This document shows positions 56,788 to 60,507 of a DNA stretch of 64,000 nucleotides, piece after piece. Under the pieces are notes generated by a model. The model had not been told where the DNA came from. It saw only the letters and a list, made by a program, of their open reading frames with translations, and searched no databases. Where the stretch lies: assembly GCF_012027495.1 (NCBI RefSeq), contig NZ_SNUK01000004.1, positions 1 to 64,000 on the forward strand, in the 5' to 3' direction. Numbering within the stretch: position 1 is the first letter of the stretch; each line of letters begins with the position of its first letter. The translations under genes and the position numbers were made by a program. This DNA comes from Thermococcus sp. JdF3. Lineage in GTDB: Archaea; Methanobacteriota_B; Thermococci; Thermococcales; Thermococcaceae.

Positions 56788-56817
56788 TGATGAAACTTTC
56801 CGCAGGTGAGGTTTTTG
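56788..56817. repeat. tRNA-linked repeat, second copy
   Basis: This segment begins TGATGAAACTTTCCGCAGG and ends GTTTTTGG. A similar segment at 299-330 reads TGATGAAACTTTGCGCAGG and ends GATTTTTGG. Both are preceded by an ACAAACTTTTG-like stretch, and both lie after tRNA genes. It ends just before the nreA TATA box. Confidence 0.55.
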
Positions 56818-56825
56818 GGAACAAA

Positions 56826-56835
56826 CCATAAATAC
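56826..56835 (+). promoter_or_regulatory. TATA box of nreA
   Basis: CCATAAATAC is centred 26 bases before ATG 56857, so the nreA message should be leaderless. This supports that start. Confidence 0.65.
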
Positions 56836-56856
56836 CTCCCCGCTTACCTACCTTCG

Positions 56857-58125
56857 ATGAGCGCCCCGGTCTTCAACTCAAAACTCTGTGCCGTCTGCAA
56901 GGGCAGAAAGCTCCTCTGCGGCAGGCCGACCTGCCCCATCCTTGAAAGGTTTAGGGTAGCCCGGACGGTTGAACGGAGGCTCAACAAACGTCACCTTTTC
57001 GGTTCTTCTCCCCCGAGCATCTTCGTCGGGGAGTACGGTTACCCCAGAGTCCGCATAGGTCCCCTCGTGCCGCCGATTGAGGGCAACACCAGTCACCTTG
57101 ACAGCCCCATGAAGTGGGAGGACAAAACCATACGCGACATCCTCTACTACCGCTCTCTCCTCGTCATGGGGGAGACAAAGGCAGACGTCCACGTGAGGAG
57201 GAGCGGGAGAATACTGGGCGAGGTTCAGGAGCTGGCAATGTCGGTGAAGCCAGTGGACAGCGAGGTTCTCCTCAAGAGGAAGCCCGTTCTCAAAGTCCTC
57301 CCGAGCGAGTTTGCACCTCCGATAGGGCCGAAGGCTGAGCTACTCGACTTTGAACTCACGGAGAACCCGCGGATTCCGAGGAGGACGGACTACGTTGTGA
57401 GCGACGAGCTGAAGGCCGAGCAGGCGATAATGAGGCTCTACAACTGGGGCTTTGACGAGTACTACATCATAAGGCTCCTCTCGGCCGGACTCCTCGGGGT
57501 GGACAAAAAGCTCGTTCCAACGCGGTGGAGCATCACGGCAGTTCAGGACACGATAGGGAAGAACCTGCGGCGCGAGATACTTCACTATCCCGAGATAAAC
57601 GACTACGAGGTGTACTTCTACAGATTCCTCGGCAACCGCTACGCCGTTCTGCTCATGCCCGAGGGCTACGCCTTTGAACTGCTTGAGGTCTGGCTCAAGG
57701 GGTCGCTCTTCGGTGCCTCTGAACCCAGCGTCATTCACGATTACGAGGACTTCCGTGGGAGGAAGGAGTACGTCAAGGAAACTGCCGGAGCGTATCACGC
57801 CGCCCGCTTGAGCGTTCTGGAGGCGCTGAGGGAAAGGAGGAGGCAGGCGAGGGTGGTGGTCTTCCGCGAGGTAACGCCCGAGTACTACGCTCCGGTCGGC
57901 GTGTGGCAGATTCGCCTCGGAGTGAAGAAGGCGATGGGAAATCCCATCGGTCGCTTTGAGACACTAAACGAGGCGCTCGATGCCATAAGAAGGCGCCTTG
58001 AGCACCCGTTTGAGAAGTACCTTGCAAGGAGCTACGTCCTTGGGAGCCTCGCGAGGCAGAAAACCCTGGATGAGTGGCTCGGAAAGAATTTATACCGCCT
58101 CGACCAAGGAAATCAAGGTGGATGA
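56857..58125 (+). CDS. nreA: DNA repair protein NreA
   Basis: Archaeal NreA acts in repair of DNA damage together with PCNA. The 422 residues start with a zinc finger (CAVCKGRKLLCGRPTCP), have the conserved SPPSIFVGEYGYPRVRIGP segment, and end with the PCNA-binding motif QKTLDEWL. The TATA spacing fixes ATG 56857 as start. Its stop codon lies inside the C box of the guide RNA at 58117-58175. Confidence 0.93.
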   Translation: MSAPVFNSKLCAVCKGRKLLCGRPTCPILERFRVARTVERRLNKRHLFGSSPPSIFVGEYGYPRVRIGPLVPPIEGNTSHLDSPMKWEDKTIRDILYYRSLLVMGETKADVHVRRSGRILGEVQELAMSVKPVDSEVLLKRKPVLKVLPSEFAPPIGPKAELLDFELTENPRIPRRTDYVVSDELKAEQAIMRLYNWGFDEYYIIRLLSAGLLGVDKKLVPTRWSITAVQDTIGKNLRREILHYPEINDYEVYFYRFLGNRYAVLLMPEGYAFELLEVWLKGSLFGASEPSVIHDYEDFRGRKEYVKETAGAYHAARLSVLEALRERRRQARVVVFREVTPEYYAPVGVWQIRLGVKKAMGNPIGRFETLNEALDAIRRRLEHPFEKYLARSYVLGSLARQKTLDEWLGKNLYRLDQGNQGG

Positions 58126-58175
58126 TGACCACTCCATCCCACTGAGGCGTGATGACTGCACGTCAGGCTGACACC
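58117..58175 (+). ncRNA. C/D box guide RNA overlapping the nreA stop codon
   Basis: All elements of an archaeal C/D sRNA are present: 5' stem GGTG (58117-58120), C box ATGATGA (58122-58128), a 13-base guide, D' box CTGA (58142-58145), spacer GGC, C' box GTGATGA (58149-58155), a 12-base guide, D box CTGA (58168-58171), and 3' stem CACC pairing with the 5' stem. TTTATAC at 58089-58095 is 25 bases before the start, so it may have its own promoter inside nreA. By the N+5 rule both guides (CCACTCCATCCCA and CTGCACGTCAGG) would direct 2'-O-methylation of an A. Targets are unknown to me. Confidence 0.85.
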
Positions 58176-58191: not shown

Positions 58192-58389
58192 GTGGAGGAG
58201 GTTGATGTTATTAGGGAGCTCATGAGGATTGAGGAAAAGCTTGAGAACATAGAGAAACTCTTGGCGGAGCTGCTTGAGAGGGAGGAGGACTACGCCATCA
58301 TGAAGATTGCGGAGGAATCGCTGAAGGAGTTCCTTGAGAACGAACCTGATCTCTATTCGCAGGAGGACCTTAAGGTGAAGTACGGATGA
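58192..58389 (+). CDS. MazE-like antitoxin (coiled-coil type)
   Basis: A 65-residue acidic protein with a coiled coil (RELMRIEEKLENIEKLLAELLERE) and the end LYSQEDLKVKYG. The start is GTG 58192 after GGAGGTGATA; the nearby ATG 58190 is in another frame with an early stop. Its stop overlaps the toxin start by ATGA. The antitoxin role is inferred from position and size. Confidence 0.75.
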   Translation: MEEVDVIRELMRIEEKLENIEKLLAELLEREEDYAIMKIAEESLKEFLENEPDLYSQEDLKVKYG

Positions 58390-58721
58390 AGGGCAAAGTC
58401 GTCCTCGTACCCTTTCCATTCACGAGTCTTAAGGGCACGAAACTTCGCCCTGCGCTGGTTCTGTTTGAGGGTACAAATGACGTTACACTGGTCTTTATCT
58501 CCTCCAGGATTGAGCGTTACAACCCCAAAACGGATGTCCTCATTGAACAATCTCATCCAGAGTTCCAGCTAACTGGCCTTAAGGTTTCGTCGTTTATCAG
58601 ACTAACAAAAATCGCCACAGTCCAGAAGGACATCCTGCCCGGAGAGCTTGGTGAAATCGGCCCACTAATCAAAAAAGAGATAAACCGGAAGGTATGCTCC
58701 CTCTTGGTGTTTGAGCCATGA
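58386..58721 (+). CDS. mazF: MazF/PemK family toxin
   Basis: A 111-residue mRNA endonuclease of the MazF/PemK family. It opens GKVVLVPFPFTSLKGTKLRPALVL, with the conserved strand and Arg-Pro; later conserved segments are SFIRLTKIATVQKDIL. It sits between its antitoxin and a phosphodiesterase gene, with ATGA overlaps on both sides. Confidence 0.88.
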   Translation: MKGKVVLVPFPFTSLKGTKLRPALVLFEGTNDVTLVFISSRIERYNPKTDVLIEQSHPEFQLTGLKVSSFIRLTKIATVQKDILPGELGEIGPLIKKEINRKVCSLLVFEP

Positions 58722-59872: not shown

Positions 59873-60274
59873 TTACAGCCACTCAATCCTAACCCTGCCC
59901 TCAAGGCTCCTGAACTCCTCGTCTCCCGTTAGAAGAACTGCGTCGAGGTCTATTGCAGTGGCAGCCGCAAACGCATCCGCATAACTCAGCTTGTGGAATG
60001 CCTTTATCCTTCCGGCTATTAGGGAAAGACGCTCGTCAACGTTAACGAAGAGGATGGGAAGTCTTTTGAGATTAGCAACGATGAAATCGGCGACATCAAC
60101 GCCCTTTCTGCGCGCTATGGTGTAGTAAATCTCGCCGAGATTTACAACGTTCATGTAAACCTCAGCGTCTCCCTGTTCAGCCTTTTCGAGCAGTTCCCTG
60201 ACCCGTTCTGCTCCATCTTCGTGGAGGAGATATGCAAGAAGGGTGTAGCTATCAAGTACAACCTTCATTTCCAT
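59873..60274 (-). CDS. vapC: VapC-type PIN-domain toxin
   Basis: A 133-residue PIN RNase. The acidic active site is formed by Asp8 (VVLDSYTLLAYL), Glu48 (NLGEIYY) and the Asp pair in LSYADAFAAATA. ATG 60274 has GGAGG seven bases upstream; ATG 60268 is also in frame. It overlaps vapB by 10 bases. Confidence 0.92.
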   Translation of the reverse strand: MEMKVVLDSYTLLAYLLHEDGAERVRELLEKAEQGDAEVYMNVVNLGEIYYTIARRKGVDVADFIVANLKRLPILFVNVDERLSLIAGRIKAFHKLSYADAFAAATAIDLDAVLLTGDEEFRSLEGRVRIEWL

Positions 60275-60507
60275 TTCTTGGCCTCCAGCTCCTCTTCCTC
60301 TGCTCTTATTTCTTTCATGATGTCTTTCAGAGGTTTATCGAACTTCAGTATTCCCATGAGGTCAATGTCTTTTTTCACCGGGACTATCACTATTTCGTCC
60401 CCAAAGTCAAGAACCTCAAGCTCGTCTCCATCTTTGATGCCGAACTTCTCGCGAATGGCCTTGGGTAAGACTATCTGGCCCTTTGAGGAAACTTTTACAG
60501 TGGTCAT
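60265..60507 (-). CDS. vapB: VapB antitoxin, AbrB/SpoVT fold
   Basis: An 80-residue antitoxin. The N-terminal swapped-hairpin DNA-binding domain reads VKVSSKGQIVLPKAIREKFG, and the C-terminal helix (residues about 55-80) would bind the PIN toxin. Such pairs repress their own promoter; a TATA-like element lies near 60548. Confidence 0.92.
   Translation of the reverse strand: MTTVKVSSKGQIVLPKAIREKFGIKDGDELEVLDFGDEIVIVPVKKDIDLMGILKFDKPLKDIMKEIRAEEEELEAKKWK

Follow-up and report, generated by a model that had tools for sequence, protein, structure and literature searches.

The 64-kb stretch of Thermococcus DNA analysed here (the window) carries the gene nreA on the forward strand at positions 56806–58125. 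Its predicted product, an archaeal Nre DNA-repair protein, matches the Pfam domains Nre_N (E = 2.5e-100) and Nre_C (E = 9.6e-38) and ends with a PCNA-box-like motif, QKTLDEWL, in its C-terminus. Overlapping the last codons of nreA on the same strand is a complete double-guide C/D box sRNA gene (58118–58175), each element of which was located in the window sequence. A short terminal stem, formed by GGTG (58118–58121) and CACC (58172–58175), flanks the C and D boxes; between its strands follow the C box ATGATGA (58122–58128), the D' guide CCACTCCATCCCA (58129–58141), the D' box CTGA (58142–58145), the C' box GTGATGA (58149–58155), the D guide CTGCACGTCAGG (58156–58167), and the D box CTGA (58168–58171). 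The order of the C (RUGAUGA), D' (CUGA), C' and D (CUGA) boxes, with guides in the range of 9–15 nt, is that of archaeal C/D box sRNAs. The stop codon of nreA, TGA at 58123–58125, constitutes bases 2–4 of the C box. A previous sequence-only reading of this locus had described the boxes, the guides, the stem and the position of the stop codon within the C box, and all of these are present as it described them. The perfect four-box pattern occurs a single time in the 64-kb window, and none was found in 200 random sequences of equal length generated with a Markov-1 model. Single-strand folding of the sRNA did not indicate unusual stability (z = -0.39), as is usual for C/D sRNAs.

The region 58118–58173 (forward strand) matches the Rfam family sR7 (RF01310) with 42.9 bits, exceeding the curated gathering threshold of 37. 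The window sRNA has the same four boxes, D guide, D' core and 23S rRNA region as sR7, the Pyrococcus copies of which attain the highest scores. Within the Thermococcaceae, sR7 matches with E-values of 0.001 or better were found in 67 of 94 genomes, only seven of which, all belonging to Pyrococcus, pass the curated threshold under the trimmed scoring of the family search; a few weak extra matches in this search represent other C/D sRNAs. The D guide and the D box are nearly invariant across the family, and a pattern search for both elements also matched 67 genomes, its one-mismatch matches including unrelated places. Neither an sR7 match nor a match to the D guide and D box pattern was obtained in genus g4. 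The Rfam score and the family-wide matches establish the sRNA as conserved, and 58118–58175 is a real small RNA gene that is already catalogued as sR7.

One of the genomes searched (G024), which we take to be that of T. kodakarensis KOD1, has its sR7 match at positions 940148–940200. Its 23S rRNA match at 2025316–2025586 lies inside the 23S coordinates tabulated in PMC9014305, supporting the identification of the genome. The sR7 match falls inside sR29 (Tko-sR29, 940146–940209), a partly circular C/D sRNA with a circular junction at 940146–940209, for which 475,600 small-RNA reads, 36 circular reads and a transcription start site (TSS) at 940134 have been reported (PMC9014305 Table 1). This TSS adjoins the nreA stop codon in the T. 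kodakarensis genome and precedes the mature 5' end by 12 bases. Tko-sR29 resembles the window sRNA in being located downstream of nreA, but the nreA stop precedes the C-box TGA by 16 bases, whereas the stop in the window is inside the C box; moreover, its D' box is CCGA and its C' box ATGAGGA. The terminal stem in the T. kodakarensis group is ACCG/CGGT. With the Rfam match, the distribution of sR7 in the family and the experimental detection of the T. kodakarensis orthologue, the suggestion of the sequence-only reading that the guide RNA is new has to be abandoned; its identification as a C/D box guide RNA, on the other hand, is supported by the four boxes, the sR7 score and the complementarity to 23S rRNA.

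The D guide, via TGCACGTCAG, is capable of forming 10 contiguous Watson-Crick pairs with CTGACGTGCA of the 23S rRNA (contig C6:2464–2473), with the A at C6:2467 lying opposite the guide base that is fifth from the D box. The D' guide, via CTCCATCCC, forms 9 contiguous Watson-Crick pairs with 23S GGGATGGAG (C6:2441–2449), facing the A at C6:2444. In the numbering of this genome's own 23S match, the predicted sites are Am864 and Am841, respectively; they are separated by 23 nt, with the D' site located upstream. In both guides, the complementarity extends over 9 bp or more and includes the nucleotide five bases from the D or D' box, as is characteristic of archaeal C/D sRNAs. The sequence-only reading had named a lack of rRNA or tRNA complementarity over at least nine bases as part of what would refute the guide assignment; the runs of 10 and 9 pairs pass this check, and the prediction that both guides specify a methylated A agrees with the fifth-base positions of A864 and A841. 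Among 3000 permuted guide pairs, a single one reached matches as good with both sites within 50 nt; the D' match taken alone is not significant, a run of nine pairs being reached in 665 of 3000 permutations. By alignment to the E. coli 23S rRNA, the D site falls near position 746, within the region of helix 35, the exact column being uncertain. Helices 35/35a are a known hotspot of archaeal methylation, and double guides usually target nearby sites (PMC7994747). As judged from these complementarities, the most likely role of the sRNA is to guide methylation at two 23S adenosines close to each other. Two other candidate targets of the D' guide were rejected. The sequence GGGGTGGAG of the 16S rRNA ranked top by a simple count of paired bases but has a G-U pair where the modification would occur; when contiguous runs were scored, 23S GGGATGGAG, beside the D target, took its place. 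The best tRNA match, to tRNA-Ser(TGA), consists of eight pairs followed by a mismatch.

The D target is supported by covariation of guide and 23S rRNA at one pair of the D guide: the D guides of the seven Pyrococcus genomes are TGCACATCAG, opposite CTGATGTGCA in the 23S rRNA, whereas those of Thermococcus are TGCACGTCAG, opposite CTGACGTGCA. Pyrococcus sR7 and the window sRNA share the targeted 23S region, with the D' site offset by one nucleotide. According to manual counting, the core of the Pyrococcus D' guide is displaced by one base relative to that of Thermococcus, so that the fifth-base rule predicts modification of the G next to the A. This one-base shift, with a predicted Gm in Pyrococcus and a predicted Am in Thermococcus, provides a simple test of guide-site evolution. 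Genera g2 and g5 carry D' guides of different sequence. That of g5, shared by the only g6 genome, is AGTTCGCTAGGT, and its best match in g5 is 23S GCCTAGCGAACC; here, one guide has been swapped and the other kept. A second conserved C/D sRNA with the guides CCTTCCCCTCAT and GCACACCGGTAGG was noticed as a weak sR7 match in Pyrococcus and g5. With respect to the boxes, the 10 genomes with a D box CCGA all have the C box ATGACGA, and a D' box CCGA likewise accompanies the C' boxes GTGAGGA, GTGACGA or ATGAGGA. These associations may reflect k-turn covariation, since the bases concerned would face each other in a k-turn.

A TATA-like element, TTTATAC (58089–58095, forward strand), is embedded in the nreA codons AAT-TTA-TAC. 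The sequence-only reading had placed it 25 bases before the stem, which is an approximation, because the element begins 29 and ends 22 bases before it; the element itself is present, and its proposed role as a promoter is likely. Among the 53 leucine codons of nreA in the window, TTA is used only once, at this site. The sequence [A/G]AT-(TTA or ATA)-TAC is found in 41 of the 41 genomes comparable at the site, a count that is not corrected for relatedness; with ATA replacing TTA, the TATA-type sequence survives a change from leucine to isoleucine. This conservation supports a candidate promoter inside the end of nreA. The homologous sequence of the T. kodakarensis group reads TTTTAA, and its distance is at odds with the reported TSS.

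Taken together, it is highly probable (about 95%) that the window sRNA is the Thermococcus orthologue of the methylation guide sR7 (Tko-sR29 in T. kodakarensis), which would direct 2'-O-methylation of A864 and A841. By analogy to the other members of the family, the window organism would produce a transcript of approximately 58–65 nt, probably from the TATA box in the last nreA codons and/or by cutting from the nreA mRNA. The RNA would fold into a k-turn (C/D) and a k-loop (C'/D') and assemble with L7Ae, Nop5 and fibrillarin into an RNP, in which the D guide would direct methylation of A864 in domain II of the 23S rRNA, around helix 35, and the D' guide that of A841 in the same region of domain II. 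Both the sRNA, a double methylation guide of a well-known type, and its overlap with the neighbouring gene are ordinary. The locus is of little weight as a new finding. It does illustrate neatly a dual guide for which both 23S targets and guide-target covariation can be given, and the way in which an RNA gene can have its promoter and C box in common with a protein gene in certain lineages but not in others.

The sRNA is located directly downstream of nreA in 55 genomes of four genera. This proximity, and the ability of k-turns at transcript ends to bind L7Ae, would be compatible with a cis-acting k-turn of the nreA 3' end which, instead of or besides a trans-acting guide, binds L7Ae and serves in 3' end formation or mRNA control. 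However, a cis element would not need conserved guides, complementarity to rRNA, or guide-target covariation, and Pyrococcus keeps the sRNA away from nreA, making such a role improbable. The sRNA adjoins nreA in the window, whereas it is away from nreA in the seven Pyrococcus genomes, and no sRNA was found after nreA in those four Pyrococcus genomes in which the region downstream of nreA was read.

In 30 of the 55 nreA-linked copies, the stop codon forms bases 2–4 of the C box; in 24, it is located 11–31 bases upstream with the sRNA kept, and the remaining copy is degenerate. The nreA stop is outside the sRNA in genera g5 and g6. Several genomes harbor damaged copies. Most of the sRNA is lost in G015, where nreA reads on into the remnant, the C box is changed to ATTATGA in G029, the D guide is broken in G033, and the copy of G059 is degraded or lost. 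The nreA product of G015, passing the usual stop, ends with GGDHPADL, which represents a natural loss of C box and stop. The distribution of stop positions and the damaged copies indicate that the overlap is neither required by the sRNA nor stable; it is an arrangement at the level of lineages, and nothing points to a separate function for it. The proposal that protein and RNA constrain each other's evolution at this site is consistent with those copies that have the stop in the C box but overstated in view of the upstream stops and the genomes lacking the sRNA, and any such constraint is lineage-specific. In a six-species survey, as reviewed in PMC7994747, the stop codon of the upstream gene was inside 25% of the archaeal C/D genes, for almost half of these within the C box, and overlaps are described as common. 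The window sRNA resembles these C/D sRNAs at the 3' ends of ORFs (Tripp et al. 2017, as cited in PMC7994747) in having the stop inside the C box, but differs in its putative TATA-like promoter, a feature which the same account gives for only 20% of the surveyed genes.

Changes in the k-turn (C box ATGACGA, D box CCGA) occur almost only in lineages with the stop in the C box. A scenario in which the sRNA, its promoter and the 3' end of nreA form one interlocked unit, with the stop codon steering k-turn evolution and the expression of nreA-mediated repair being coupled to ribosome methylation, is quite improbable. The stop codon at bases 2–4 of the C box in the window and 29 other genomes might also suggest a new, undescribed C/D sRNA that acquired its C box from the nreA stop. 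This is very unlikely, as the sRNA matches Rfam sR7 and has an orthologue known as Tko-sR29; besides, it need not derive from the nreA stop, because the copies of Pyrococcus, g5 and g6 lack the overlap. A decayed or non-functional C/D pseudogene, reminiscent of the degraded or lost copies in G015, G029, G033 and G059 and of genus g4 where none was found, is hardly credible for the window copy with its four perfect boxes, perfect stem and two guides complementary to 23S rRNA.

Between the sRNA and a phosphodiesterase gene, the region 58192–58721 comprises a small ORF (65 amino acids) and, after it, a gene for a PemK/MazF-like toxin (Pfam PF02452). In several relatives which do not have this pair, the phosphodiesterase gene immediately follows the sRNA or nreA, which suggests that a toxin-antitoxin pair was inserted. 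A PIN-domain protein and a MazE/AbrB-type antitoxin partner are encoded on the reverse strand at 59873–60507, and constitute, within 2 kb, another pair resembling a toxin-antitoxin system. Of six g4 genomes searched, at least five contain a second, divergent nreA paralogue of 36–38% identity.
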